Origin: Pseudobutyrivibrio xylanivorans DSM 14809
GTDB lineage: Bacteria; Bacillota; Clostridia; Lachnospirales; Lachnospiraceae
Direction of reading: 5' to 3'
Length of the DNA: 41,371 bases
Assembly: GCF_900141825.1 (NCBI RefSeq)
Contig: NZ_FQYQ01000023.1
Coordinates: 1 to 41,371 of the forward strand
The notes under the pieces are model-generated. The model worked only from the letters and a program-made list of their open reading frames with translations, was not told where the DNA came from and did not search any database. Position 1 is the first letter of the stretch; each line of letters begins with the position of its first letter. The position numbers and the translations under genes were made by a program. Positions 1 through 41,371 of this stretch are shown in pieces.

Positions 1-35
1 CCAGGCGTAGATTTCATTTTCCATGCAGCAGCACT
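1..35. repeat. Left copy of 35-bp exact terminal repeat
   Basis: Bases 1-35 are identical to 41337-41371 and lie in the same frame of capE. This is the signature of a circular molecule, a tandem array or a loop in an assembly graph. It is coding sequence, not a recognisable recombination site. Confidence 0.97.
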
Positions 36-801
36 TAAGCAGGTTCCATCTTGTGAGTTCTTCCCAATGGAAGCTGTTCGTACAAACGTAGAGGGAACCG
101 ATAACGTGCTTCACGCAGCTGTTGAGGCTGGCGTTCAGCGAGTTGTTTGTCTTTCAACAGATAAGGCTGCATATCCAATCAATGCCATGGGTATTTCAAA
201 GGCTATGATGGAAAAGGTTATCGGCGCTAATGCTCGTGTAGCTGCTGGTAAAACTACTATCTGCACCACACGTTATGGTAACGTTATGTGCTCTCGTGGT
301 TCGGTTATTCCTCTTTTTATCGACCAGATTAAGGCAGGAAATCCTATCACAATCACAGACCCTAACATGACTCGTTTCCTTATGAATCTTGATGAGGCAG
401 TTGCTCTTGTTATGTTCGCATTCGAGCACGGCGAGCCAGGTGATTTATTCGTTCAGAAGGCAGATGCCTGCACAATCGGCGACCTTGCAAAGGCTGTTCA
501 GCAGACATTTGGCGATACAGGTACAAAGATTATCGGAACACGTCACGGCGAGAAGCTTTATGAGACACTTCTTACAAATGAGGAGTGCGTTCGTGCCATC
601 GATATGGGTGATTACTACCGAGTACTTCCTGATGGTCGTGATCTTAACTATGACAAGTTCTTCGTTGATGGCCAGGTTCAGACAATGGCTTCTGATTCTT
701 ACACATCACACAATACAAAGAGACTTGATGTTCAGGGCACAATTGACAAGATTATGGGGACGGACTATGTGAGGGAGATGCTGGAGAGCTGGAAAAAGTA
801 G
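1..801 (+). CDS. capE: UDP-GlcNAc 4,6-dehydratase/5-epimerase CapE (FnlA/WbjB-like), 3' part
   Basis: This is the C-terminal 266 residues of a short-chain dehydrogenase of the CapE/FnlA family, open from the first base. The family converts UDP-GlcNAc to a 4-keto-6-deoxy sugar, the first step towards UDP-N-acetyl-L-fucosamine. Visible marks are FIFHAAALKQVP at the edge, the STDKAAYPINAMGISK segment carrying the catalytic Lys region, RYGNV, and a GTRHGEKLYETL substrate-loop motif. The missing start lies at 41094-41336: positions 1-35 repeat 41337-41371, and the joined frame gives 347 residues, a normal family length. capF and capG lie just upstream across that junction. The next gene (921) is unrelated AT-rich cargo, so the sugar operon appears to end here. 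Confidence 0.93.
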   Translation, partial: PGVDFIFHAAALKQVPSCEFFPMEAVRTNVEGTDNVLHAAVEAGVQRVVCLSTDKAAYPINAMGISKAMMEKVIGANARVAAGKTTICTTRYGNVMCSRGSVIPLFIDQIKAGNPITITDPNMTRFLMNLDEAVALVMFAFEHGEPGDLFVQKADACTIGDLAKAVQQTFGDTGTKIIGTRHGEKLYETLLTNEECVRAIDMGDYYRVLPDGRDLNYDKFFVDGQVQTMASDSYTSHNTKRLDVQGTIDKIMGTDYVREMLESWKK

Positions 802-920: not shown

Positions 921-1643
921 GTGATAGAGGAATTTCACGAAATATGTAATGTATTGGTTTCAAAATTGAATTCAAGAAATGTTAAGATATCTAGAGATGT
1001 AGTAGTTGAGGGCATAGCTCTTGCAAATCCGGTAGTCGGAGTGGCGGCAACAGGGGCAAATTCGTTCTTGGATACATTGGATAACTATTTGCTTAGTCGG
1101 TTGCTGATGGGTTTGTCAAGTGGTTTGAATCAGGAGAAACAAATTAATGATTTATATAATTTTGTGAAAACTTCTGAGGAAAGAGCTTTTTTAGTCGGTA
1201 CAATATTTAAGCAAACTATGGCTTCTCAATCTCCAAAAGCTTGTGTTGTTATGGGCAAAATTCTAGCAAATCATATAGGTGATAATGAATCAGATTTTAC
1301 TAGAGATGAAATAATAGCGCTTACAGCCTTGGCAAATGCAACGGATTATGATTTAGAAAGTTTCAGTATCATAATGAGGCAATGTGTTAAGAATGATGAG
1401 AATGGCGCTAAAAGAATATCATATAATAAATCGATAGATAAAATTGAAGATATGATTCCTGAACTTAATAGCACATGTGCATGGTGTACATATAATCGCT
1501 TATTTACATACAATCCAATGGAATGGGGAAGTTTTGACGGTGAAAAGTTGATTGTTGATACACATTATAAGATAACGGCCTCATCAGAAATTTTAATTAG
1601 ATGGATAGATGAGGTTAAGCAGATTTGGGATTATGGCAAATAA
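921..1643 (+). CDS. Conserved-looking hypothetical protein, 240 aa
   Basis: I do not recognise this family. The start is GTG, with AAGAAAGAAGG ending about 6-8 bases upstream; the ATG two bases earlier is followed immediately by a stop. Residues about 27-50 form a Gly/Ala-rich hydrophobic stretch (GIALANPVVGVAATGA), a possible single membrane-associated helix. The rest is soluble, mostly helical in character, with a CxxC pair (CAWC) near residue 188 and acidic residues in the second half. Codon use is AT-rich and unlike capE just upstream, suggesting separate acquisition. It lies 329 bases before an ATPase/nuclease-like pair on the same strand, so it may belong to that cargo, but no overlap or shared leader proves this. 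Confidence 0.75.
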   Translation: MIEEFHEICNVLVSKLNSRNVKISRDVVVEGIALANPVVGVAATGANSFLDTLDNYLLSRLLMGLSSGLNQEKQINDLYNFVKTSEERAFLVGTIFKQTMASQSPKACVVMGKILANHIGDNESDFTRDEIIALTALANATDYDLESFSIIMRQCVKNDENGAKRISYNKSIDKIEDMIPELNSTCAWCTYNRLFTYNPMEWGSFDGEKLIVDTHYKITASSEILIRWIDEVKQIWDYGK

Positions 1644-1972: not shown

Positions 1973-3265
1973 ATGGAAAAAATATTAATTGAAAATTTAG
2001 GACCTATTAAACACTTTGAAACTTTTTTGGAGAGTGATTTATATACTGTCATAGGTGAACAAGCTAGTGGGAAAAGTACTATAGCAAAATCAATCTTTTT
2101 CTTTAAAAGTATAGGGGAAGAATTTGAAAAATTTCTTATGGATGAATTGAGTATTTTCGCAGGAGGGGAAATAGATGTTTCTCTAATTAGTTTCAAAAAA
2201 AGACTTAGAACAAAATTTATAGAATTGTTTGGGACAACAAAACATATGATGCCTTTTAAAATGAAGTATGTGTCAGATAATGATGAAATAGTTATTTCGT
2301 TAAGACGAGGTTATGCAAATATTGCATTTTCTAAAGAATTATCAAATCAATGTTATTCCGCAATTATGGCGGCTAGAGATTATGCCGAAATGATGACTGC
2401 CGGAACTGAAATGGCAGATTTTGGATTATGGATAAAACGACGTGATGATTTATCTGATGTGATAAAAAACCTATCAAGAAAAGTTTTCAAACAAGAGTAT
2501 GTATCGATATTTGTTCCAGCTGGCAGGAGTATTTTGGCTACAAATTCAGAATTTTTTCATGCGTTTACACCTAATAAATATGATATATTAATGAATGATT
2601 TCATTGAGAGAATAAGATTACTACAAAAACAATATTCACAGTCACTAGAAGATATTGTAGAGGACAGAAAAAAATTAAGTACAGTTGAGATAGATTTTGA
2701 TAGTGTAAAAAGAGCTAAAAGTTTAGTAAGAAAAATTCTTAAAGGTGATTATATAAATGATCAGAATGGTGAAAGAATCTATTATGATGGAAGACGATAT
2801 GTAAAATTGATTCAAGCTTCCTCAGGACAGCAAGAAGTACTGTGGATAGTATTATTATTATTTTCTATTATATTAAATAAGCAGAAGGTTTTTTTGACTA
2901 TTGAGGAGCCAGAAGCACATGTGTTTCCTAATGCGCAGAAGGATATTATAGAATTGATAGCTTTAATGATAAATTCGACGGATAGTACAGTGGTATTGAC
3001 TACCCATAGTCCGTACGTATTGACGGCAGAGAATTTGTTAATGTATTCATCTAAAGTAGAAGGGGATAGTGAATTAGAAAAAAGTGTAGTAGATAGGAAA
3101 TATCGAATAGATTATAAAAAAGTACAGTCTTATTTGATAAAAAACCAAGAAATAGAAAATATAATGGATTATGAGAATGCAATGATAGATGCGACTAAAA
3201 TTGATGAGGTATCAATGTTAATAAATGAATCCTTGGATAAATTATTAGATTTGGAGGAAAACTGA
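1973..3265 (+). CDS. AAA/ABC-type ATPase (AAA_15/AAA_21, OLD-like), candidate defence component
   Basis: This 430-residue P-loop ATPase has the SMC/ABC head layout. It has an N-terminal strand typical of such proteins (IENLGPIKHF), Walker A GEQASGKST at 28-36, a long central insert of about 200 residues, an ABC signature SSGQQ near 283, Walker B FLTIEEPEAH near 307, and an H-loop TTHSPY near 343. The start is well placed behind GGAGG. Proteins of this type pair with nucleases in systems such as PARIS, Septu and Gabija, but here there is no OLD/TOPRIM domain in the same chain. The stop overlaps the next start (TGATG), so the two genes are translationally coupled. That partner looks like a PD-(D/E)XK protein. 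A defence role is inferred, not shown. Confidence 0.88.
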   Translation: MEKILIENLGPIKHFETFLESDLYTVIGEQASGKSTIAKSIFFFKSIGEEFEKFLMDELSIFAGGEIDVSLISFKKRLRTKFIELFGTTKHMMPFKMKYVSDNDEIVISLRRGYANIAFSKELSNQCYSAIMAARDYAEMMTAGTEMADFGLWIKRRDDLSDVIKNLSRKVFKQEYVSIFVPAGRSILATNSEFFHAFTPNKYDILMNDFIERIRLLQKQYSQSLEDIVEDRKKLSTVEIDFDSVKRAKSLVRKILKGDYINDQNGERIYYDGRRYVKLIQASSGQQEVLWIVLLLFSIILNKQKVFLTIEEPEAHVFPNAQKDIIELIALMINSTDSTVVLTTHSPYVLTAENLLMYSSKVEGDSELEKSVVDRKYRIDYKKVQSYLIKNQEIENIMDYENAMIDATKIDEVSMLINESLDKLLDLEEN

Positions 3266-3774
3266 TGTGTGATTTATTTACAGATTGTGTCGAAAACATT
3301 CAGCTGAAAAGCATACCTCATACTAATTGCAGTAGTTTAAATTGTTTTGAACATTCTGATACTAGAAAAAATGTTAAGGTTGAAGAGAATAAGAAGAAAT
3401 ACTTAATAAATAATTCGTTAGCAAAAAAACTTACGGTGCTGAAAGTTGATGGAGGAATGATAGACAATTCAAGTCAAACTAAATGTGACTATTTAGTATT
3501 GCAAATTGAAGATAAGATAAGTATATTTGTTGAATTAAAAGGTTCTGATGTAAAGCATGCTTTTGAACAGTTAAGTGAGACGATAAATAGTATGAATGCG
3601 TGCTTGGAAGATTATTCAGTCTATGCAAGGGTGATTTGCTCATCGAAGCAAAATGTGCCCAATTATAATGCTTGCCCACAGTATGTAAAATTAAAAAAAA
3701 TATTGAAGAAACACGATGGTGATTTAGAGATAAAGAGTATGGAGTTGACAGAAGATATTGCAAAATTTTACTGA
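3265..3774 (+). CDS. Probable PD-(D/E)XK nuclease-like partner of the ATPase
   Basis: This 169-residue protein starts inside the stop of the preceding ATPase (TGATG), which implies co-translation in fixed ratio. The N-terminal 50 residues are rich in Cys and charge (CDLFTDC, NCSSLNCFEH), possibly a small metal-binding or interaction segment. Residues 73-95 give the pattern CDYLV then FVELKG: Asp75, Glu90 and Lys92 fit the D-x14-E-x-K core of the PD-(D/E)XK fold, followed by a helix containing AFEQL. No family name comes to mind, and the fold call rests on this short motif. Alternatives are a non-catalytic sensor or an immunity-like partner. Confidence 0.8.
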   Translation: MCDLFTDCVENIQLKSIPHTNCSSLNCFEHSDTRKNVKVEENKKKYLINNSLAKKLTVLKVDGGMIDNSSQTKCDYLVLQIEDKISIFVELKGSDVKHAFEQLSETINSMNACLEDYSVYARVICSSKQNVPNYNACPQYVKLKKILKKHDGDLEIKSMELTEDIAKFY

Positions 3775-9203: not shown

Positions 9204-10133
9204 ATGATTGAAAAAATGGGGGCTGGAATAGATAATTCGAATCACGATTTATATAAGTTTTTTAAAAGAGCGAATGATGATATTGCAAAAGAGTATAGCC
9301 GCATATGCGAAAGAGTTAGTGAAGATCCTGGAACGGCTGGTGACCAAGGAGAGGAAAACTGGAAAGAACTATTGTCAAACTGGCTGCCCCAGTATTTTCC
9401 AATTGTTACTAAAGGAAGAATAATTGGGGAAAACGGATTAACTAGCCCACAAGTTGATTTATTGGTGTTATCCCCAGATTATCCTAGACAATTACTAAAT
9501 TGTAAAGAATATTTATCAGGTGGAGTACTTGCCGCGTTTGAGTGTAAGACAACCTTAAGAACGGCTCATTTGGAAAAATTTATGATAAATTCGGCTAAAA
9601 TAAAACAAATTGGTGGACAACGAGGTACTACATTACATGGGGAGTTAAATAGTAATATTTACTATGGACTGCTAGCACATTCACACTCATGGAATAAAAA
9701 GAATTCTCGCCCGGTACAAACTATAAATAATGGTATTTATCGTTATGACAAAATGCATATATCACATCCGTATGAGATGCCCGATATAATTTGTATTGCA
9801 GATTTAACAACATGGAGTTCAGCTAAATTTCTAAGCCCTAAAAATGGGACTATGATAGGAATTGATGATTGTATAAAAACGGTGTATTTTCAAGCAGTAT
9901 CAACCAATGGAATGTATACTCCGGTAGGAGAGTTAGTATTTAACATGTTAGATTATTTGGCTTGGGATTATGTGAGTATAAGAAAGCTTGTTTCGTACAT
10001 GAGAAAAATGAATATAGCAGGAAGTGGTCAAGGGGATTCTAGAACATGGAATATAGATTGTTTATCGAAAAAAGTTCAAAAAGGGCCGTATACTAATGGT
10101 GGATTTTGGAATGAATGGAATATATGTCAATAG
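9204..10133 (+). CDS. DUF6602-like PD-(D/E)XK protein, candidate defence partner of SIR2
   Basis: The 309-residue protein shows the layout I associate with DUF6602: a helical N-terminus with GTAGDQGE near 43-50, then LPQYFPIVTKGRII, then a nuclease-like core in which Gln83-x-Asp85 (SPQVDLLVL) and Glu113-x-Lys115 (AFECKTTL) form a PD-(D/E)XK signature. DUF6602 proteins are repeatedly seen in accessory and defence regions, but biochemical activity is not established to my knowledge. GGGGAGG lies 10 bases before ATG 9204; the ATG at 9197 hits a stop at once. The SIR2 gene follows after 150 bases on the same strand, and both are AT-rich, so they may be co-inherited. Family name is from memory. 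Confidence 0.82.
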   Translation: MIEKMGAGIDNSNHDLYKFFKRANDDIAKEYSRICERVSEDPGTAGDQGEENWKELLSNWLPQYFPIVTKGRIIGENGLTSPQVDLLVLSPDYPRQLLNCKEYLSGGVLAAFECKTTLRTAHLEKFMINSAKIKQIGGQRGTTLHGELNSNIYYGLLAHSHSWNKKNSRPVQTINNGIYRYDKMHISHPYEMPDIICIADLTTWSSAKFLSPKNGTMIGIDDCIKTVYFQAVSTNGMYTPVGELVFNMLDYLAWDYVSIRKLVSYMRKMNIAGSGQGDSRTWNIDCLSKKVQKGPYTNGGFWNEWNICQ

Positions 10134-10283
10134 ACTGATGTAAATTTCAATATTTAAATGCTTATAATGTGCATACATGATATCTATGATGTAAAATTTG
10201 ACACGGTGAATTAGTATTATTTCTATAATATGTGGTAAAATTAACATATTAAATATATTATAGGGTGAACGTAGGAAAAAGAT

Positions 10284-11870
10284 ATGGGAGTATTAGAAGA
10301 AATTGTAGAATCAAATAGACTTCCAGTTTTATTTATTGGAGCTGGGTTTTCTAAACGGTATTTATATCGCTATCCATCATGGATGGAACTGTTGGAATTA
10401 TCGTTTGCAAAATTTGAACCAGATGTATTTCAACTTCAAAAACATATTGATGGGTGTAAACGTAAGGGGATGAGTGAGTTTGAGATAAATGCATATCTAG
10501 GAACAGTTATAGAGGATGGATTTAATCAGGCTTTTTTTGATAGAAAAATTTCAATAAATGTTGGAAATAAAAAGAATCCAAGTTGGGTTAAAAGAAGAAT
10601 ATCTCCATATAAAATGTTTTTGGCTGATTTTTTTAGGAGGCAAAAATTAAATCGTTCTCCAGAACTTTCAGAAGAACTAGATAAATTGAAAAAATTAAAG
10701 AGTAAAATTGCGGCCGTCATCACAACAAATTATGATTCATTTCTTGAAAATCAAGTTTTTACTAATGATTACAATGTTTTCGTGAGACAGCACGAGCTTT
10801 TTTCACCAGATAGTTATGGCATAGCCGAAATATATAAAATTCATGGTAGTGTGACAGATGCTGAGTCAATAGTTATAACTGAGCAAGATTACAAGAATTT
10901 TAAAGAGTCTAGGAAGCTTATTATTGCTAAAATGCTTACATTATTTTCGGAGTCACCAATTATTTTTATGGGATACTCATTTAGAGATGAAAACATCAAA
11001 GAAATAATTGAGGATTTTTTGAGTTGTCTTTCGGATGAACAGCTCTCTAATATTAGAAAACATTTTATATTTATAAGTTATAAAAAAGATGAGCAAAATT
11101 TAGTTGAAATTGAGAGGACTATTACCACTAAGAATAATATAGAAATACCATTTGTGGAAATTCAGACGGACAATTATGGGCTGGTATATGATCAGTTGGC
11201 TAGAATTACGCCTGGAATATCACCTCTAAGGGTAAGAGAAACTAGAAGATTGGTAAAAACAATTGTGGATCAAAAAATGACCTCTGCTGAAGCTCAATCT
11301 ATAATAGTTGGAATAGATGATCTTTCTAAAGTGGATTTGACATCAAAGCCGTTGGCGATTGCGATAGGTTATAAAGATAATATTTTAAACAAATATGGAT
11401 ATGGCTTGTTGGAGGATAATCAAATTTTTGAAGATATAATTTTTGATAATAAGAAATTTGATTGTGAAGCCATGTGTTCTGAACGATATAAGAATATTGC
11501 AATTACAAGATTGTTACCGGTTTTTAAATATGTTAAAAATCAGCATATTATAGAAGATAGTAAATTAGATAATTATGTAAAAACTCATGATTCATTAGAT
11601 AAAATTGTTTCAAGAAAAATAGCAGAGACTTTTAAAAATTTTCCTGAGTATGATAGTTATGAGCAATTGTATCGAAACATGATAAATGCAGAAAATTGCC
11701 GAAAAACGGCAATGTCTATTTTGAAAAATATGGATAATCTAACCATTGATGAATTAAGAGAGGCTTGCAAGTATTTATTCGAAAAGTATCCTAATGAATT
11801 TGCGACTGAAACAAATGCTAAAAGATGTATATTATGTTTGGATATTAGAGAGAATTATCTGAAGAAGTGA
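10284..11870 (+). CDS. SIR2-family protein (probable NADase), candidate anti-phage effector
   Basis: The N-terminal 240 residues form a SIR2-like domain: GAGFS at 19-23 for NAD binding, TTNYD at 147-151, IHGS at 186-189 with the likely catalytic His, and GYSFRD at 230-235. The remaining 290 residues are a helical region that I do not recognise, probably a sensor or oligomerisation domain. In DSR, Thoeris ThsA and short-pAgo systems, such domains cleave NAD+ during phage infection; that function is inferred here. A separate promoter is possible: TTGACA at 10198 and TATAAT at 10224, though the 20-base spacer is long. A hairpin terminator follows the stop by a few bases. Confidence 0.9.
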   Translation: MGVLEEIVESNRLPVLFIGAGFSKRYLYRYPSWMELLELSFAKFEPDVFQLQKHIDGCKRKGMSEFEINAYLGTVIEDGFNQAFFDRKISINVGNKKNPSWVKRRISPYKMFLADFFRRQKLNRSPELSEELDKLKKLKSKIAAVITTNYDSFLENQVFTNDYNVFVRQHELFSPDSYGIAEIYKIHGSVTDAESIVITEQDYKNFKESRKLIIAKMLTLFSESPIIFMGYSFRDENIKEIIEDFLSCLSDEQLSNIRKHFIFISYKKDEQNLVEIERTITTKNNIEIPFVEIQTDNYGLVYDQLARITPGISPLRVRETRRLVKTIVDQKMTSAEAQSIIVGIDDLSKVDLTSKPLAIAIGYKDNILNKYGYGLLEDNQIFEDIIFDNKKFDCEAMCSERYKNIAITRLLPVFKYVKNQHIIEDSKLDNYVKTHDSLDKIVSRKIAETFKNFPEYDSYEQLYRNMINAENCRKTAMSILKNMDNLTIDELREACKYLFEKYPNEFATETNAKRCILCLDIRENYLKK

Positions 11871-23423: not shown

Positions 23424-25265
23424 ATGGCAAAATTTAGAGACTTATTAGTGAAATTCTATAGATTTATGATACTTGTATTTGGCGTTTTTGAAATCTCAGT
23501 CATCTGGGCTATGAGTATGTTTTTTACATGCTTTATTTCCAGTGATGAAAATGAGATTACGTTTTTTTGTAAGGATAAGGCACCGTTAAATATACTGATA
23601 GTAATTGTCTTTTTTGCAATTACATTTGTGTTGGCTAAAAAATCCGTAATCACGAATTTTATTGGTAAATTGAATGATGACGCATTTTTTAATCAAGCTA
23701 AAGTGATAATTCTTTGGATTATTACAATCATGGGAATCCTTTGGGTTCTTATTACCCAGTATGTGCCAGGTTCTGACCAGCTGGATGTTATGTCTAGTGC
23801 ATATAAGTATGGTGTTGGAGACACTGCTGTTGTGGCAGCTGGAGGATATCTTGACAGATGGCCACATAACATTGGAATAGCCACAGTAGAAAGGGTTATC
23901 AGCTTTTTTGTTGGTGATTTTAATGTTGTGTTCATGCAGCTTTTGAATGTCCTTGGAATCACATTGATTTACAAGAAGATGGTGGATACATGGGAAAAGC
24001 TTGGCGGTTCACGTTTTTCTCAGATTTGTACATTAGGATGTGGAATTATCTTTTACCCATTAATAATGTATGCATCTTTTGTGTATGGAAATATCTGGCA
24101 TGTTACATTAGCGTTGATTTCATTTGATGCTTTGGTGGATTATTTTGATACTAAGAAGAGTCTTTGTTTGGCGAAGTGTGCACTGGCCATTGGTTTATCC
24201 TATGTGGTAAAGAGTAGTGGAATCCTCTTCTTTGTGGCACTGGTTATCTATGCAATAGTTCGCGGAGCAATAGAGAAGACTAAGTTTTATAAAGTTTTGC
24301 TGGCTATTGTAATAATGTGTGTATCTCTTGGTATATTTGCAACTGTTCCAAAGGTAGTTTTGGCGAAATCCATGAAGACAGAACTGAGAGAGTCTACTGG
24401 AATATGGGCGCTTATTGCTATGGGATTACAGGAAGACGGTGCCACTGCTGGCTGGTATAACGGATATCCTTTGAATGTATATTATGAGAATAATTGTGAT
24501 GGACCTGCTTCAGAGAAAGCAGCGAAAGTAGAATTAAGTAATAGATTGAACTATTTGTTTGGTGATAAACATCATGCCTATGAATTCTTCTCAAAGAAAA
24601 TTGCTTCCACATGGATTGAGCCTACATATCAGTCGTATTGGATTAGTCAGGTAAGAAATCACCGTGTTACTTTTCCTAAATGGTTAGATTCGTTTATGAG
24701 TGCAAAGGGATACACCACAGCAGCAAAAGTATTTGATATTTTCCAGATATTGATTTTTACAGGAACAATTTTGTGGATGATATTAGAAGATAAAAGGAAA
24801 TTTGTGGATAAAGCATTTTTACTTTTAAGCTTTATAGGAGGATTTACCTTCCTTCTGTTTTGGGAGACAAAGGCTCAGTACACAGTAACATATTTCGTAT
24901 TACTGTTCCCTTATGCTTTGACAGGATTTGAGCTGTTGGCTGGAAAATGTGAAGCTGCCTCAGCGATTAAGTCGGCTAATAAGCCTGTGCTGATTTATAG
25001 CGCACTGATTATCGTATTTTATTTGGTGGGATATAAGCTTGATGCATCACACTGTTTATCAAATCAAAATGCGGCTTATGATTTTTATGTGAGTCAATGG
25101 ACTGAGTCAGGATTCAATGAATCGGTTTATGAGATAAATAATATTAGAGCACAAATGAATGCATATAATGAACGTATAGTAGATTATATTCAGAGACTAG
25201 AGGCAGAACAAAAGAAAAACGCTGAATATGAGCGCTTGTTAGATGAAAATGGTATAGCCCACTAA
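23424..25265 (+). CDS. Polytopic membrane glycosyltransferase-like protein (GT39/ArnT-like)
   Basis: About 613 residues with 11-13 transmembrane helices, a large outer loop with VPGSDQLDVMSSAY near 125 (an acidic loop-1 site as in GT-C enzymes), and a final cytoplasmic-type coiled coil (YIQRLEAEQKKNAEYERLL). GT-C enzymes move sugars from polyprenyl-phosphate donors onto glycans or proteins; the GtrB-like GT2 genes at 34051 and 37555 could make such donors. Family placement is moderate. I chose the start at 23424 (MAKFRDLL), eight bases after GGAG, because a -10 box overlaps the earlier ATG at 23394. Confidence 0.78.
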   Translation: MAKFRDLLVKFYRFMILVFGVFEISVIWAMSMFFTCFISSDENEITFFCKDKAPLNILIVIVFFAITFVLAKKSVITNFIGKLNDDAFFNQAKVIILWIITIMGILWVLITQYVPGSDQLDVMSSAYKYGVGDTAVVAAGGYLDRWPHNIGIATVERVISFFVGDFNVVFMQLLNVLGITLIYKKMVDTWEKLGGSRFSQICTLGCGIIFYPLIMYASFVYGNIWHVTLALISFDALVDYFDTKKSLCLAKCALAIGLSYVVKSSGILFFVALVIYAIVRGAIEKTKFYKVLLAIVIMCVSLGIFATVPKVVLAKSMKTELRESTGIWALIAMGLQEDGATAGWYNGYPLNVYYENNCDGPASEKAAKVELSNRLNYLFGDKHHAYEFFSKKIASTWIEPTYQSYWISQVRNHRVTFPKWLDSFMSAKGYTTAAKVFDIFQILIFTGTILWMILEDKRKFVDKAFLLLSFIGGFTFLLFWETKAQYTVTYFVLLFPYALTGFELLAGKCEAASAIKSANKPVLIYSALIIVFYLVGYKLDASHCLSNQNAAYDFYVSQWTESGFNESVYEINNIRAQMNAYNERIVDYIQRLEAEQKKNAEYERLLDENGIAH

Positions 25266-26959
25266 TAGAGGCTATCCATATAATCATTCATACACTTCAA
25301 TCTTTCTAATACATAATTTTCAAAATCATCAAGTTTTTTATCAGGGGTGTAGTAGTTACCATCCCACCAACGGTCCATGGTACGCATATAAGCACCTGAG
25401 TTATAAATGGCATCCTCGTATTTTGCGATGGATGCCTTTATTGCATCATCGGACCATACAGTATTTCTAAGCTCGTCATATCTTGCCTGTAATTCGGGCA
25501 AAATATCTTCATCTCCACATTCCATTAAAAAGTACACAGGTGACCATTCTATTGGAAGGTCATAATCAGGTGAATTGAAATATGATGTGATGCCATGATT
25601 TCCCTGGCCATCTACATATCTGTTCCCGAAGGTTTGATCCATATCCCATGGACATAAGAGGAGCTTATAGCCATCGATACCTGTGTCGGAAAGCTTTGTG
25701 GCTGAATATAGATTCTTCACTTGGTTCGTATATACGTTATCAACGGCTTGAGTGAGCTTATAGAAAAACCAAAGATCGATAGCGTCATCCATGTCGCAGG
25801 TACTTCTGATGGTGTTGGGATCTTTGGAATATGCCATCTCATAATAAAGCTCATGGAGTTGTTCAAAGCCTTCCATGGAGCCATCCTCCAAAGAGTAGCC
25901 AGGAAGCCATAAATCTCCAGAATCTGTAGGTTCCAAATCAAGGGAGAATTCTGTGCCTGACCAGTCTTTCTTCTTAAAGAGAGTCTCTTCGTCCTGGATA
26001 TCGAACTGTTTGTTATCGATAGGATAAGTCAGGGCATATAGACCGTGGTAACGATTGTTTATAAAAAGTTCTATGTATTTGTATTCGTTGGAATTAGGGG
26101 CGTTCCATTCATTTCTGTCGTAGGCCATATCGTGCCATAGATTCATGGAAAAGACAGTTCTGATTTTCTCATAATCTGAGTATGGAGAATAAAGAATCCA
26201 GTCATCATCTTCACGGAGACCCAGAAGATTCTTTTTTGACTTAGTCGAATGGTCTTCACCATTTTCTAAAAGTGAAAGACGATAGCTTTTTTGTGGAAAA
26301 CCTATTGTAGTTCCGCCGCGAGTGTGGATTTTTGCAGGACTTTCAATGAGTCGGGATGCATCATCAAAATCAGCGGAGTTATCGTAAAGAGACATGGTGA
26401 CAGATGTGTAATTATCGATTGCGTAAGTGTCATCAAGTCCTAATTCTTTTACTGTTTCTGCTGACACATTTATATTCATCACTGGAAGAGTGGTGATTAC
26501 AAGATTTGAAATGCTGATAGAGATGCCTGATTTTATGACGAGCTTTGGCTCGCAGCTTGGGGCGGTGCTTGTAGTGTTTCCGGTATACAGGGCGAGCTTT
26601 GGCTTGGATTGTTTTAAGGCAGCCTTAAATGAGATAGAAGGCATGCGGATTATGGTTTTGCTTTCAATTTCGGCGTCGTCTTCAATCGCTGAATAATAGA
26701 AGGTGTCTGTGGCCTGGTCATATATTAGCTTTTCATCATTGAAATAAATGTCAGAGAAGAGGGCAGGGGTGTCCTCAGAGGTTTGCTGTTCGTATTTACG
26801 TAGCGCTGTTTCATCTATCTGCACATCTTCCCATGCGTAGCTAGGGTTCATACGGCTGTCGATTATAAGCAGGCCTGCAATGACGAATATGGCGAAGCAG
26901 AGCGTAATGATAGATTGTATGAACTTTGGTGATTTAAATTTCAATGATAAAAAAGCCAT
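25262..26959 (-). CDS. CotH kinase family protein (second copy)
   Basis: This protein of about 565 residues has an N-terminal membrane helix (about 14-35) and an extracytoplasmic CotH-type domain. Marks are TRGGTTIGFPQKSYRLSL near 215-235, LLGLREDDDWIL near 250, NLWHDMA, YIELFINNRYHGLYAL near 300, and the catalytic-type LCPWDMDQTFGN near 440. CotH proteins are atypical protein kinases in spore coats; in other Firmicutes they sit beside VTC and DUF4956 genes, as here. Start 26959 (MAFLSLK) has AAGGA just upstream and lies 10 bases after the previous stop. The extreme C-terminus overlaps the convergent GT39-like gene end by four bases. Confidence 0.9.
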   Translation of the reverse strand: MAFLSLKFKSPKFIQSIITLCFAIFVIAGLLIIDSRMNPSYAWEDVQIDETALRKYEQQTSEDTPALFSDIYFNDEKLIYDQATDTFYYSAIEDDAEIESKTIIRMPSISFKAALKQSKPKLALYTGNTTSTAPSCEPKLVIKSGISISISNLVITTLPVMNINVSAETVKELGLDDTYAIDNYTSVTMSLYDNSADFDDASRLIESPAKIHTRGGTTIGFPQKSYRLSLLENGEDHSTKSKKNLLGLREDDDWILYSPYSDYEKIRTVFSMNLWHDMAYDRNEWNAPNSNEYKYIELFINNRYHGLYALTYPIDNKQFDIQDEETLFKKKDWSGTEFSLDLEPTDSGDLWLPGYSLEDGSMEGFEQLHELYYEMAYSKDPNTIRSTCDMDDAIDLWFFYKLTQAVDNVYTNQVKNLYSATKLSDTGIDGYKLLLCPWDMDQTFGNRYVDGQGNHGITSYFNSPDYDLPIEWSPVYFLMECGDEDILPELQARYDELRNTVWSDDAIKASIAKYEDAIYNSGAYMRTMDRWWDGNYYTPDKKLDDFENYVLERLKCMNDYMDSLY

Positions 26960-26969
26960 ATAAATATCC

Positions 26970-28604
26970 TTAAGGTAAGCTGTTGATATAAGTGTCCATT
27001 GCAATTAGTCGTGCCAATACATAAGTTTTAAATTCGGAAAGCTTGATATTTGAATCGTTGTAAGCACCGTCTTTATATTTGTCTCTGGTTCGTGCAAAAG
27101 CACCTGAATCGTAGATTTGTTTTTCGTAGGTGTCGATTTTTTCTGAGATACATTCATCGGACCAGGTGGTGTTTCGTAATTCCTGATAGCGTTCTTTAAT
27201 CTGATTGTTGATCTCGGTGTCACCTGTGTACTGAAGGCGGTAAACTGTGCCCCAGCCGATAGGAATATCATAATCAGGGCTGCCGTACTGTCCTGTAGTG
27301 CCTTCGCCGATATAGCGGAAGGTCTGATCCATATCCCATGGAGTGAACAGAAGCTTGTGCCCAGCGATTCCTGAGTCGGAGTTCTTTACAGATACGTACA
27401 TGTTTTTAACGTTTCCATAATTTACATTATCCACCGCCTGTGAAAGCTTATAAAAGAGCCACAGGTCGATTGAATTATCTACATCAGAAGTCATCCTGAT
27501 GATGGCTGGCTCCACCGAGTAATTCATGTTCATGTAAAGCTGAAGTAGGTAGTTGAAATCCTCGCTGGTGCCATCCTTTAGCTGATAGCCAGGAAGATAA
27601 TCGCCGTTACCATCGTTTGTCAGTGCTGTATCCAATTCACTCATGGACCAGTCTTTTTTCTTAAAGCTGCTTTCACCCTCTTTAATCTTGAATTCTTTAG
27701 AATCTAATCTATAACAAAGTCCGTATAGGCCGTGATAATGGCCGTTGAAGAACAGCTCTACAAAAGCATACTTAGTAGAATTGTTTACCTTCCATTCATT
27801 ATGACCAGTGGCACTGTCGTACCAAAGATTAGTGGCAAAAACATTTCTTACTTTTTCGTAGTCCTTATAGGTGGCGGAAAGAATCCAGTCATCATCTTTG
27901 CGAAGGCCAAGGAAGTTTTCCTTATTATTTTCACCATCTAGGTCGTTTTTATCTGCCAACAGGGACAGGCGGTATCCTTTCATAGGATAGTTTACAGTGG
28001 TCTGTCCGTGGCGTTTTACCTTTGCGTCAGATTTAATCACGCGGCTGGCACCATCAAAATCTGCCCTGTTATCAAACAGGTATACCGTGCTTCCTGTGTA
28101 ATCCATGATGTCGAAGGTATCATCTAGCCCAAGCTGGCTCACCATATTATCGTCTATACGAATATCCATCACAGGAAGAGTGGTGCAAATGAGGTTTGAG
28201 ATACTGTAGGAAGTGTTATCGTAGATGATAAGCTCTATAGGTGTGTTTCTGGCGATGGTGTTGTCATCAATGGCTGGGCCGTGAAGAGCCACGTTTATGC
28301 CAGTATCTGTGATGGCTTCAGGATTGTAGCTATCTGCATTATTTTCAATTAAAGAATAATAGAAAGTATTTGTATCGCTGTCATAGATAAGTGGCTGCTT
28401 ATCAAAGTAAACATTTGTTGTAAGTGGTATGGCTGAAGGTGAAAATTTGGAAGTGATTTTTGTATAAAGCTCATCGTTTATGTATAAATCATTGGCTTCG
28501 GTGAAGGTACCCTCAGAAGATTTGCCTGAGATAATAACTACCGAGGCGATGATTAAAGATATTAAAATAATGATGGTTGATTTGATTTTTATAGACATAT
28601 TCAT
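26970..28604 (-). CDS. CotH kinase family protein (first copy)
   Basis: A paralogue of the downstream gene, with an N-terminal membrane helix (about 8-28) and the CotH core: TTVNYPMKGYRLSL, FLGLRKDDDWIL, NLWYDSA, FVELFFNGHYHGLYGL and FTPWDMDQTFRY. The last motif has Arg where the other copy has Gly after TF, so the two may differ in activity or partner. The TTG nine bases from the strand's first open codon is unlikely as a start; AAAGG precedes ATG 28604 by 11 bases (a second ATG follows at 28598). It is transcribed divergently from the VTC/DUF4956 pair, with a TATAAT on this strand about 30-40 bases upstream. Confidence 0.9.
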   Translation of the reverse strand: MNMSIKIKSTIIILISLIIASVVIISGKSSEGTFTEANDLYINDELYTKITSKFSPSAIPLTTNVYFDKQPLIYDSDTNTFYYSLIENNADSYNPEAITDTGINVALHGPAIDDNTIARNTPIELIIYDNTSYSISNLICTTLPVMDIRIDDNMVSQLGLDDTFDIMDYTGSTVYLFDNRADFDGASRVIKSDAKVKRHGQTTVNYPMKGYRLSLLADKNDLDGENNKENFLGLRKDDDWILSATYKDYEKVRNVFATNLWYDSATGHNEWKVNNSTKYAFVELFFNGHYHGLYGLCYRLDSKEFKIKEGESSFKKKDWSMSELDTALTNDGNGDYLPGYQLKDGTSEDFNYLLQLYMNMNYSVEPAIIRMTSDVDNSIDLWLFYKLSQAVDNVNYGNVKNMYVSVKNSDSGIAGHKLLFTPWDMDQTFRYIGEGTTGQYGSPDYDIPIGWGTVYRLQYTGDTEINNQIKERYQELRNTTWSDECISEKIDTYEKQIYDSGAFARTRDKYKDGAYNDSNIKLSEFKTYVLARLIAMDTYINSLP

Positions 28605-28722
28605 AAAATAATTGCCTTTCAAGTTACATATGTAATATTATAGCAATATCGGATTGTTAAGCAATATATTCACATTTTATAAGCATGGAGGATGGCCGCC
28701 GGTGGGTGGCTAGAGTTTTGTA
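28605..28722. promoter_or_regulatory. Divergent CotH/VTC control region with tiny upstream ORF
   Basis: On the minus strand TATAAT (28634-28639 complement) with a weak TTGCTT 16 bases upstream faces the CotH genes. On the plus strand TTGTTA (28656) and TTTATAAG could serve VTC. A GC-rich stem GCCGCC-GGTG-GGTGGC lies at 28695-28710. A 12-codon frame from ATG 28685 (MEDGRRWVARVL) ends in TAATG, overlapping the VTC start. Confidence 0.45.
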
Positions 28723-29412
28723 ATGGAATATCGGCATGAATTGAAATTCATGGTATCAGATTTGACCATCGAGAAGCTTCGGCACAGGCTGGAGCCAGTG
28801 ATGGAAAAGGATGAGTTCCATGATGATTTCTATACAATAAGAAGTTTGTATTTTGACGATTTGTTTGACAGTTGCCTGAATGAAAATCTGGCAGGTACGG
28901 ACGACAGATTCAAATACAGAATTCGTTTTTACGATGATAATAAAGATTATATTAATCTGGAGAAGAAATATAAGAAGCGAGGCATGACCAAGAAAGAGTC
29001 CCAGCATTTGTCATTGGAGCAGGTGAAGAGCTTTATGGAAGGCCTGGATGGCTTGGGAACTGGTGCTGGCGATTCGTTCGCGGCTGATTTGTCCACAGAG
29101 CTGATGGCTGCAGGTTTGAAATCTGGCATGAAGCCTAAATGTATCGTGGAGTATGATAGGCTGGCATTTGTAGAGCCAGCAGGGAATGTGCGAATCACCT
29201 TCGATATGAATCTTCGCGGTAGCACTGATGTGGAAAGATTTTTGGATACAACAGAGGAGTTTGCACTTCCAGTTGTGGAGCCGGGAATGCACATACTAGA
29301 GGTGAAGTACGACGAGTTTCTGCCAAAATATATTTTACAACTGGTGGATTTAAACAATTTACATAGACAATCATTTTCAAAATATGCAATGGTGAGAGAG
29401 GTGTTAGGATGA
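28723..29412 (+). CDS. VTC-domain protein (polyphosphate polymerase domain-like)
   Basis: The 229-residue protein matches the VTC domain: RHELKFMVS at 4-12, IRSLYFDD near 43-50, FKYRIRFYDD near 66-75, LEKKYKKRGMTKKES near 82-96, EYDRLAF near 144-150 and LEVKYDEFLP near 193-202. These are the strands of a tunnel-shaped triphosphate-binding fold with conserved basic and acidic residues. Yeast Vtc4 makes polyphosphate; the bacterial enzymes beside CotH and DUF4956 are not firmly characterised to my knowledge. There is no strong SD directly before ATG, and a 12-codon upstream ORF ends at the start (TAATG). The 3' end overlaps the DUF4956 gene by ATGA. Confidence 0.92.
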   Translation: MEYRHELKFMVSDLTIEKLRHRLEPVMEKDEFHDDFYTIRSLYFDDLFDSCLNENLAGTDDRFKYRIRFYDDNKDYINLEKKYKKRGMTKKESQHLSLEQVKSFMEGLDGLGTGAGDSFAADLSTELMAAGLKSGMKPKCIVEYDRLAFVEPAGNVRITFDMNLRGSTDVERFLDTTEEFALPVVEPGMHILEVKYDEFLPKYILQLVDLNNLHRQSFSKYAMVREVLG

Positions 29413-30080
29413 GTTTTTCAGATATTATTAAAAAATCAGTACTTGAAAGTTTCGCAGCCACAGATATGTCGGCTAAGTTTGTAGCAGTAATTCTGATTGA
29501 GACATTTATTATCGCTTTGTACATCTTCCTGGTGTATCGCTTCATGACACGCTCAAGCTTTTACAACAAGGGCTACGCCGTTTCTATGGCGATGATTTCT
29601 GTAATCACGGCGGGAATCATTTTGGCTATGCAGTCTAATCTGGTTATTTCTTTAGGTATGGTCGGTGCCCTTTCTATCGTCAGATTCCGTACAGCCATCA
29701 AGGAACCGATGGATTTGCTTTTCTTATTCTGGTCAATCGGCACAGGTATCGTGGTTGGCGCAGGGCTTTTCTCTATGGGCGTGATGATAGCCGTATTCGT
29801 TACTGTTGGATTGGCATTTTTAAATATGGTGCCAGCGTTATCATCACCTGAGTTATTAGTACTTAAGATGGATGGCGCGGCTGAACCTTCTGTTATGTCT
29901 ATCGTGAAGAGCGGCACAACAGCATTCAAAGTGGATTCAAAATCTATCACAAAGGGTGCTACTACTTTGGTCATCGAAGTGAAGACAAAGGACGGCAGCT
30001 CGCTTGTAAATAAGATTTCTGATGTGGACGGCGTGATTTCAGCTACACTGATGCATCATGAGGGTGAAGTGAAGAATTAA
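29409..30080 (+). CDS. DUF4956 membrane protein
   Basis: The 223-residue protein has three or four transmembrane helices in the first 140 residues, with the family hallmark MVGALSIVRFRTAIKEPMDL near 80-100 between helices. The C-terminal 80 residues are a soluble ferredoxin-like domain (VIEVKTKDGSSLVNKISDVDGV). DUF4956 genes are regularly next to VTC genes, and here the two are coupled by ATGA. The triad with CotH suggests a membrane-linked phosphate or phosphotransfer process in the envelope, but the reaction is unknown. No terminator is seen before repeat copy B, 50 bases downstream. Confidence 0.92.
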   Translation: MSFSDIIKKSVLESFAATDMSAKFVAVILIETFIIALYIFLVYRFMTRSSFYNKGYAVSMAMISVITAGIILAMQSNLVISLGMVGALSIVRFRTAIKEPMDLLFLFWSIGTGIVVGAGLFSMGVMIAVFVTVGLAFLNMVPALSSPELLVLKMDGAAEPSVMSIVKSGTTAFKVDSKSITKGATTLVIEVKTKDGSSLVNKISDVDGVISATLMHHEGEVKN

Positions 30081-38660: not shown

Positions 38661-38710
38661 TTACAAGATTATGGGTGCCTAGGCACTTTTGGAAAATAGG
38701 AGAGACTATT

Positions 38711-39931
38711 TTGAAAATTCTGGTTACCGGTGCAGCCGGTTTTGTTGGAAAAAATCTTGTGGAAACATTGAAGTGTGCTTCAGATGGAAGAGACAAGTTT
38801 CACGCTTTTGGCGAAGAGCTTACCATCTTTGAGTACGACAGGGGTTCCACTCCTGAGGAATTAGACCGCTACTGCAGCGATTGCGATTTTGTTTTCAATC
38901 TGGCAGGGGTCAATCGTCCTAAAGACAATAGCGAATTTATGGAAGGGAACTTCGGATTTGCCAGCACCCTTCTCGATACATTAAAAAAGCATAATAATAC
39001 CTGCCCGGTGATGCTTTCATCATCTATTCAGGCAACACTTTTGGGTCGTTATGCAGGTAGTGATTACGGCGCAAGTAAGCTGGCTGGAGAGGAGCTGTTC
39101 TTTAAATACAGCTACGAGACAGGGGCAAAGGTTTTGGTTTACCGCTTCCCAAATCTTTTTGGAAAATGGTGCAGACCAAATTACAATTCCGCTGTGGCTA
39201 CATTCTGTAATAACAAGGCAAACGGCTTGGAGATTACAGTGAACGACCCATCCACAGAACTGACGCTTGTTTATATCGATGATTTGGTAAATGAGATGTT
39301 TGATGCCCTTCAGGGAAATGAACACCGCTGTGATTATGATGAGGAAGGCAATGTGGTTCCTGATACAGCTGGAAAGTATGCTTATGTTCCAGTGACACAC
39401 ACAGTCACGCTTGGTGAGATTGTGGAGCTGCTCGATAGCTTCGTGGAGCAGCCAGACACACTTATGATGCCAGCCATTCCAAATGGCAGCTTTGCAAAGA
39501 AGCTTTACAGCACATATCTTAGCTACCTGCCAAAGGATAAGGCGATTATTGATTTGAAAATGAACTGCGACCAGCGAGGAAGCTTCACAGAGCTTCTTAA
39601 GACTCCAGACCATGGCCAGTTCTCTGTTAATATCAGCAAGCCTGGTATCACAAAGGGTCAGCATTGGCATCACACCAAATGGGAATTCTTCATCGTGGTT
39701 TCAGGCCATGGAAAGATTCAGCAGCGTCGTGTTGGAGTTGATGAAAATGGTCAGCCATTCCCAATAATTGAGTACGAGGTGAGCGGCAAAAAGATTCAGG
39801 CTGTTCACATGCTCCCAGGCTACACACACAACATCATCAATCTTTCTGAGACAGAGGATTTGGTGACACTGATGTGGGCTAACGAATTATTGGAGCAGGA
39901 TAGACCAGATACATATTTTGAAGAGGTATAA
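38711..39931 (+). CDS. capF: CapF/FnlB/WbjC-like NAD(P)-dependent reductase with C-terminal cupin domain
   Basis: About 406 residues from a TTG start at 38711 (KILVTGAAGFVGKNL), seven bases after AGGAG; the GTG 36 bases earlier lacks a site. The N-terminal SDR domain (to about 285) binds NAD(P) through GAAGFVG. The C-terminal cupin (about 290-405) has QRGSFTELLK, QHWHHTKWEFFIV with the metal-binding His/Glu set and PGYTHNIINLS. CapF epimerises and reduces the CapE product on the way to UDP-L-FucNAc. It is the first gene of the capF-capG-capE operon, behind an extended -10 promoter; the next gene starts one base after the stop. Confidence 0.93.
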   Translation: MKILVTGAAGFVGKNLVETLKCASDGRDKFHAFGEELTIFEYDRGSTPEELDRYCSDCDFVFNLAGVNRPKDNSEFMEGNFGFASTLLDTLKKHNNTCPVMLSSSIQATLLGRYAGSDYGASKLAGEELFFKYSYETGAKVLVYRFPNLFGKWCRPNYNSAVATFCNNKANGLEITVNDPSTELTLVYIDDLVNEMFDALQGNEHRCDYDEEGNVVPDTAGKYAYVPVTHTVTLGEIVELLDSFVEQPDTLMMPAIPNGSFAKKLYSTYLSYLPKDKAIIDLKMNCDQRGSFTELLKTPDHGQFSVNISKPGITKGQHWHHTKWEFFIVVSGHGKIQQRRVGVDENGQPFPIIEYEVSGKKIQAVHMLPGYTHNIINLSETEDLVTLMWANELLEQDRPDTYFEEV

Positions 39932-39932
39932 A

Positions 39933-41090
39933 ATGTTTAAAAATAACGGGAAATTAAAGTTATTAATCATCGTGGGCACACGTCCAGAAATCATTCGTCT
40001 TGCAGCTGTTATTAAGAAGTGCCGCAAGTATTTCGATTGCGTTCTTGCTCACACAGGTCAGAATTACGACTACAATCTTAACGGAGTATTCTTCAAGGAT
40101 CTCCAGCTTGATGACCCAGAGGTTTACATGGATGCAGTTGGCGACAACCTTGGTCAGACAGTAGGAAATATCATTGCAAAGTCATACGAGCTTATGGTGG
40201 AGATTCAGCCAGATGCTCTTTTGATTCTTGGCGATACAAACTCATGCCTTTCAGCTATCGCTGCAAAGCGTCTTCACATTCCAATCTTCCACATGGAAGC
40301 TGGTAACAGATGTAAGGATGAGTGCCTCCCAGAGGAGACAAACCGCCGTATCGTAGATATTATTTCAGATGTAAATATGGCATATTCTGAGCATGCTCGC
40401 CGCTATTTGGCAGACTGTGGTCTTCCAAAGGAGCGTACATATGTGACAGGATCTCCTATGGCAGAGGTTCTTCACGATAACTTAGAGGCTATTGAGGCAT
40501 CAGACGTGCTTACAAAGCTTGGCCTTGAGCCAAAGAAATACATCCTTCTTTCTGCTCACAGAGAGGAGAACATCGACACAGAAAAGAATTTCACATCGCT
40601 TTTTACAGCAATCAACAAGCTTGCTGAAAAATATGACATGCCAATTTTATACAGCTGTCACCCACGTTCAAGAAAGCGTCTCGAGGCCACAGGCTTCAAG
40701 CTTGACCCACGAGTTCGCATGCACGAGCCACTTGGCTTCCACGATTACAATCATCTCCAGATGAATGCCTTCGCGGTTGTTTCAGACTCAGGTACACTTC
40801 CAGAGGAATCAAGCTTCTTTACAAGCATTGGAAAGCCATTCCCTGCAGTGTGCATCCGCACATCGACCGAGCGTCCAGAGGCACTTGATAAGGCTTGCTT
40901 CTTCATCGCTGGTATCGATGAGGCATCACTTCTTCAGGCAGTTACAACAGCCATCGACATGAACGAGGCTGGTGATTATGGTATCCCAGTTCCTGATTAT
41001 GTGGAGGAGAATGTGTCTACAAAGGTTGTTAAGATTATCCAGTCTTATACTGGTATTGTGAATAAAATGGTTTGGAGAAAGGACGTTTAA
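39933..41090 (+). CDS. capG: CapG/FnlC/WbjD UDP-N-acetylglucosamine 2-epimerase-like
   Basis: This 385-residue protein belongs to the non-hydrolysing UDP-GlcNAc 2-epimerase family: VGTRPEIIRLAAV near 16-28, HTGQNYD near 47-53, LGDTNSCLS near 95-103, FHMEAGNRC near 117-125, PEETNRRIVD, SAHREENID near 205-213 and SDSGTLPEESSF near 285-296. In the FucNAc pathway it performs the final C2 epimerisation to UDP-L-FucNAc. I chose ATG 39933, just after the capF stop and behind AGAGG, over the overlapping TTG 39918. capE starts three bases after its stop, so expression is coupled. Confidence 0.95.
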   Translation: MFKNNGKLKLLIIVGTRPEIIRLAAVIKKCRKYFDCVLAHTGQNYDYNLNGVFFKDLQLDDPEVYMDAVGDNLGQTVGNIIAKSYELMVEIQPDALLILGDTNSCLSAIAAKRLHIPIFHMEAGNRCKDECLPEETNRRIVDIISDVNMAYSEHARRYLADCGLPKERTYVTGSPMAEVLHDNLEAIEASDVLTKLGLEPKKYILLSAHREENIDTEKNFTSLFTAINKLAEKYDMPILYSCHPRSRKRLEATGFKLDPRVRMHEPLGFHDYNHLQMNAFAVVSDSGTLPEESSFFTSIGKPFPAVCIRTSTERPEALDKACFFIAGIDEASLLQAVTTAIDMNEAGDYGIPVPDYVEENVSTKVVKIIQSYTGIVNKMVWRKDV

Positions 41091-41093
41091 AAA

Positions 41094-41371
41094 ATGAATT
41101 GCGATTTATTCAAAGATAAGACTCTTATGATTACTGGAGGTACAGGTTCTTTTGGTTCTACTGTACTTAAGCACTTTTTGGATTCTGATTTAAAGGAAAT
41201 CCGTATTTTCTCACGTGATGAGAAGAAGCAGGATGATATGAGACATCAGCTTCAGGCTGAGCACCCAGAGTATGCTTCAAAGGTAAAGTTCTACATTGGT
41301 AACGTCCGCGATATGCGCTCTGTTCAGGATGCTATGCCAGGCGTAGATTTCATTTTCCATGCAGCAGCACT
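41094..41371 (+). CDS. capE: UDP-GlcNAc 4,6-dehydratase/5-epimerase CapE, 5' part
   Basis: The first 92 residues of CapE, cut by the window end. GGAGAAAGG lies about 10 bases before ATG 41094. The NAD(P)-binding MITGGTGSFGSTVL (about 11-24) and FSRDEKKQDDMR (about 39-50) are characteristic of CapE/FnlA. The last 35 bases repeat bases 1-35 in frame; joining 41094-41336 to 1-801 restores a 347-residue enzyme. It is the third gene of capF-capG-capE. Confidence 0.94.
   Translation, partial: MNCDLFKDKTLMITGGTGSFGSTVLKHFLDSDLKEIRIFSRDEKKQDDMRHQLQAEHPEYASKVKFYIGNVRDMRSVQDAMPGVDFIFHAAA
41337..41371. repeat. Right copy of 35-bp exact terminal repeat
   Basis: Identical to bases 1-35; see the left copy. 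If the molecule is circular, its length is 41,336 bases. Confidence 0.97.

Follow-up and report, generated by a model that had tools for sequence, protein, structure and literature searches.

The window, by which we mean the whole 41,371-nucleotide stretch of Pseudobutyrivibrio xylanivorans DSM 14809 DNA analysed, is the entire contig C24 of a draft of 57 contigs (3,420,924 bases in total), and it both begins and ends inside a capE gene of the UDP-GlcNAc 4,6-dehydratase type. Positions 1–801 (plus strand) hold the 3' arm of one copy, capE X (Polysacc_synt_2 family), the 5' arm of which is on contig C50. It is followed at 921–1643 (plus strand) by a gene without a Pfam family, which had only one weak match (34%, in G025) in the 28 other genomes of the genus and is thus nearly strain-specific. 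At the other end of the window, two genes that we take to be capF (38675–39931, plus strand; Epimerase and Polysacc_synt_C domains) and capG (39918–41090, plus strand; UDP-GlcNAc 2-epimerase family) precede the 5' arm of a second copy, capE Y (41094–41371, plus strand), which runs on in contig C18. Together capE, capF and capG presumably represent the UDP-L-FucNAc-type gene set (fnlA-fnlB-fnlC), with which they share the three gene families and their clustering; here, however, the order is the one shown by several relatives (capF-capG-capE), and the window has a further capE at its opposite end. Defence-like genes are found at 1973–3774 and 9204–11870. They encode an AAA ATPase and its partner, which match PADLOC AriA/PDC-M29A and, weakly, PDC-M29B; a product of NucC-like nuclease type with DUF6602; and a SIR2-domain protein that matches PDC-S25 at 1e-113. 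Two adjacent CotH kinase genes stand beside a VTC-domain gene and a DUF4956 gene at 25262–30080; these gene types are also grouped on pNP95, a plasmid of P. xylanivorans MA3014.

The sequence-only reading had noted that the last 35 bases of the window equal the first 35, and an exact comparison of the ends confirmed this: bases 1–35 are identical to bases 41337–41371, the only exact terminal overlap when lengths of 1–2999 were compared. No other contig of the draft has overlapping ends of its own (49 of the 57 contigs were readable, the other eight being N). The same reading had proposed that joining the ends restores capE, starting at 41094 and ending at 801, and that the window might therefore be a circle of 41,336 bp. 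Joining does yield 347 codons in frame, but the same number results from each of the three remaining pairings of the capE halves carried by the window, C50 and C18, and the intact frame is therefore no argument for a circle. Moreover, a search of the draft with the window ends showed that both run on into other contigs, and on C50 and C18 capE enters different flanking DNA, contrary to what a circle would show.

All four contig ends lie inside one exact 155-bp stretch within capE (hereafter R), which has two distinct entries and two distinct exits, with mismatches directly beyond it at –61 and +95 (window base 1 counted as 0). C50 (reversed) and C18 carry the whole of R and overlap each other by exactly 155 bases, and the window shares exactly 95 bases with each: positions 1–95 (plus strand; bases 61–155 of R) are identical to the last 95 bases of C50 reversed, and positions 41277–41371 (plus strand; bases 1–95 of R) to the first 95 bases of C18. 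The overlap at 41337–41371, to which no strand is assigned, is the portion of R present in both ends of the contig, and its length follows because two 95-base pieces, one from each end of a repeat 155 bases long, have 35 bases in common (2 × 95 – 155). Overlaps of exactly 95 bases occur at five contig-end pairs of the draft, in a survey in which 98 of the 114 contig ends were readable and 24 of the 98 had any exact dovetail of at least 20 bases. The self-overlap of the window is thus shorter than the overlap between neighbouring contigs, and the 95-base overlaps lead to C18 and C50; the ends of a circular replicon would join only each other, but both ends of the window share 95 bases elsewhere. 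These features match those of a two-copy repeat left unresolved by a k-mer graph assembly, with fixed 95-base end overlaps and an exact 155-bp repeat having two entries and two exits; we found no difference, the short self-overlap being what arises when a repeat is shorter than twice the fixed overlap. The idea that the positions of the cuts betray a chimeric window-to-window edge was dropped in view of the 155-base overlap between C50 reversed and C18, the cuts being those of a plain two-in, two-out repeat. The 155-base end overlap between C31 and C54 was rejected as a parallel case, since it belongs to a dispersed repeat with 17 matches.

The figure of 95 equals K–1 for K = 96, the value with which ALLPATHS-LG presumably works, and hence would give 95-base overlaps; a statement of this value was not found in the parts of the literature searched. 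For this strain (P. xylanivorans Mz5T, DSM 14809) Table 1 of PMC7523725 names vpAllpaths r46652 as the assembler, and SPAdes was dropped as a candidate on that account. In the description given for another JGI genome, Velvet contigs served for the simulation of 1–3 kb pairs with wgsim, followed by Allpaths-LG (PMC4711178), and the name vpAllpaths suggests that this pipeline was used for Mz5T as well. The Illumina short-insert libraries of the Hungate1000 project are described as having an average insert of 270 bp (PMC6118326). Breaks at exact repeats are routine in this draft: in a sample of 1,000,613 bases (about 29% of the draft, the capE repeat included), each of the 16 exact repeat pairs of at least 96 bp had one or both copies no more than 251 bp away from a contig end, several of these pairs being copies of the same few repeats, and no pair of at least 96 bp had both copies well inside contigs. 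The break in capE therefore needs no special cause. The same 1.0-Mb sample led us to reject the idea that failure at a repeat of merely 155 bp marks a mixed population.

Three arrangements are compatible with R: a linear C50-window-C18, the window as a circle beside a joined C50-C18, and a tandem array. The gene order in other genomes bears on which joints are native. Twenty-seven other genomes, two of which belong to other genera, supplied 29 capE loci, three of them truncated by contig ends. In 11 of the 29, viewed with flanks of about 1.5 kb, capG lies upstream of capE and the EamA gene of C18 downstream, although in G007, one of the 11, another gene intervenes in the capG-capE-EamA order. 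Among eight genomes with long flanks, six have capG-capE followed by EamA (G003, G005, G009, G010, G012 and G028), with some 1.5 kb intervening in G012. The order in G022 and G015 is instead capE-capF-capG-EamA, and in G022 a further capE follows a capG. A single unbroken alignment spans the joint between the window end and C18 in two genomes, G009 (89.6%) and G010 (82.0%; a single contig of 3,164,379 bases), and in G005 the alignment across this joint is split within capE. Because relatives keep the capG-capE-EamA order, the joint of the window end with C18 is most likely native, a conservation that also speaks against the circle proposed earlier. With two entries and two exits, C50 would then join the window start by elimination. 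This second joint was seen in no relative examined, and neither the gene at 921–1643 nor the FrhB gene of C50 lies beside capE in any of the 29 loci. In G015, the capE pieces of which are located at contig ends or close to them, there was no exact overlap among the three ends tested.

We therefore regard the linear order C50 (reversed)–capE X–window–capF–capG–capE Y–C18 as very probable, with the window presumably on the chromosome and in single copy. In this order the contig would end on both sides inside the 155-bp exact repeat common to two directly oriented capE genes; an assembler working with 95-base neighbour overlaps would have been unable to match entries to exits and would have cut all four, leaving the whole repeat on C50 and C18, 95 bases of it at each end of the window and hence 35 in common. 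The matching ends are then most likely an ordinary assembly effect, with probably no DNA circle behind them, and they show nothing new in kind. That the assembly had gone astray through two similar copies of capE was among the possibilities raised from the sequence alone; in substance this holds, but no loop was closed, the repeat having been cut instead. This guards against wrongly reporting a 41-kb circle that lacks replication genes, and it provides a simple check of circularity for draft contigs, in which a self-overlap is compared with the fixed overlap of the assembler and other contigs with the same ends are sought.

The two capE copies have a history of their own. With matches accepted at E up to 1e-80, capE is matched more than once in three of the 29 genomes examined in the genus (G015, G022 and the genome of the window, G000, where copy X consists of C50 plus the window start and copy Y of the window end plus C18), and not at all in three of the 29. 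Copies X and Y differ at only 5 of 293 positions (98.3% identity) in a 5' tract from –198 to 94 (window 41139–41371 and 1–95 against 1–293 of L005, from C50), and at 88 of 706 thereafter (3' arms, 87.5%; window 96–801 against 156–861 of L006, from C18). The tract is more alike, and stands out more from the 3' arm (by 10.8 points), than in any of the 253 pairs among 23 capE genes of relatives, where the maxima are 97.6% and 8.6 points, a comparison that leans in favour of the tract because its limits were chosen from the X–Y mismatches themselves. A recent exchange between the copies in the 5' tract, by gene conversion or crossover, is likely on this comparison, and it would at the same time have created the exact repeat at which the assembly broke. 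The underlying biology to which this points is modest: a second capE, the first part of which was recently homogenised with the native copy.

The 3' arms are less straightforward. The window-start arm is closer to the native capE of G009 (91.6%) and G005 (92.3%) than is the C18 arm (86.4% and 88.7%), whereas the C18 arm is the nearer of the two for the other 21 of the 23 capE genes, and the arms are therefore of mixed history. Against the native capE of G009, the window's own two arms reach 91.8% and 91.6%, the C50 arm 88.9% and the C18 arm 86.4%; the neighbours of copy Y, compared with the corresponding genes of G009, reach 93.3% (capG), 91.2% (both EamA genes), 93.2% (PglD) and 87.0% (capF). 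Possible causes are a swap of 3' arms between the two sites and a replacement, from an outside source, of the arm on the EamA side. Of all the observations, only these proximities could be read as favouring a window-to-window joint.

A further reading deserves mention, namely that the direct capE copies act as a recombination handle, so that some cells of the population carry the intervening 41.3-kb block of polysaccharide and defence-like genes in duplicate, or have excised and re-inserted it. Both the homogenised 5' tract and 3' arms that look exchanged relative to their neighbours would be accounted for in this way, but we consider it improbable. Duplication of a capsule locus is known in Haemophilus influenzae type b, where, as could also happen here, a surface polysaccharide locus between direct repeats can be duplicated by unequal crossover; in the present case, however, no amplification is shown and the repeats are diverged capE genes, and no paper combining all the queried features was found in the literature searched. 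If true, such recombination would offer a rumen bacterium a route for altering its surface polysaccharide.

Tandem amplification, in which unequal crossover between the capE copies has duplicated the 41,336-bp unit in all or some cells, so that a window-to-window joint coexists with those to C50 and C18, appears very unlikely: the repeat graph permits that joint and the direct copies have probably exchanged sequence recently (5 of 293 against 88 of 706 mismatches), but nothing in the contigs requires it in a draft routinely broken by exact repeats.

Least probable of all, and only slightly behind, is a 41,336-bp circle formed by the window apart from a chromosome that runs from C50 (reversed) through capE into C18; the repeat graph allows this, the two capE arms on the window come closer to the native gene of G009 than those on C50 and C18, and a related locus lies on a plasmid in MA3014, yet such a circle would part capG-capE from the EamA genes that come next in 11 of the 29 loci, and its 35-base self-overlap falls short of the 95 bases that lead to other contigs. 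The earlier observation that the window lacks genes for replication, partition, mobilisation, integration or transposition proved true for the ORFs scanned: no replication, partition, relaxase, integrase or transposase family was detected (Pfam, E up to 0.001) in these 38 ORFs (the window has 56 ORFs of at least 90 aa, many of them nested or antisense), and the lack of a replication or partition family is a further point against a circle. On the other side, the MA3014 paper reports several plasmid replication genes in the Mz5T draft and states that extrachromosomal elements need experimental validation (PMC7523725).

The only plasmid record with similarity to the window (plasmid collection, 'near' mode) was that of pNP95 from P. 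xylanivorans MA3014 (NZ_CP043029.1). Like the window, it carries many polysaccharide genes, a related capF-capG-capE-EamA locus among them, but it is a circle of 82,698 bp with integrase and transposase genes, and at the DNA level it matches only 15% and 5% of two window parts; a replication gene is absent from its listed features (L310, L311), in a feature table that is incomplete. The related locus is thus on a circle in one relative, but on a different and larger one, where capE still runs into EamA, which argues against the window as a circle. The PglD, Cys/Met enzyme and MBOAT genes that follow EamA in C18 are, in G003 (taken to be MA3014), on the largest contig, of about 3.39 Mb, which is taken to be the chromosome.

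C50 also carries, on the minus strand at 2177–2255 of L005, a stub of the capE 5' end, in which 51 bases are 92% identical to the capE start of the window and 16 codons are followed by a stop. Directly after this stub lies a perfect 12-bp inverted repeat with a 4-base loop, which at up to three mismatches occurs a single time in the draft.
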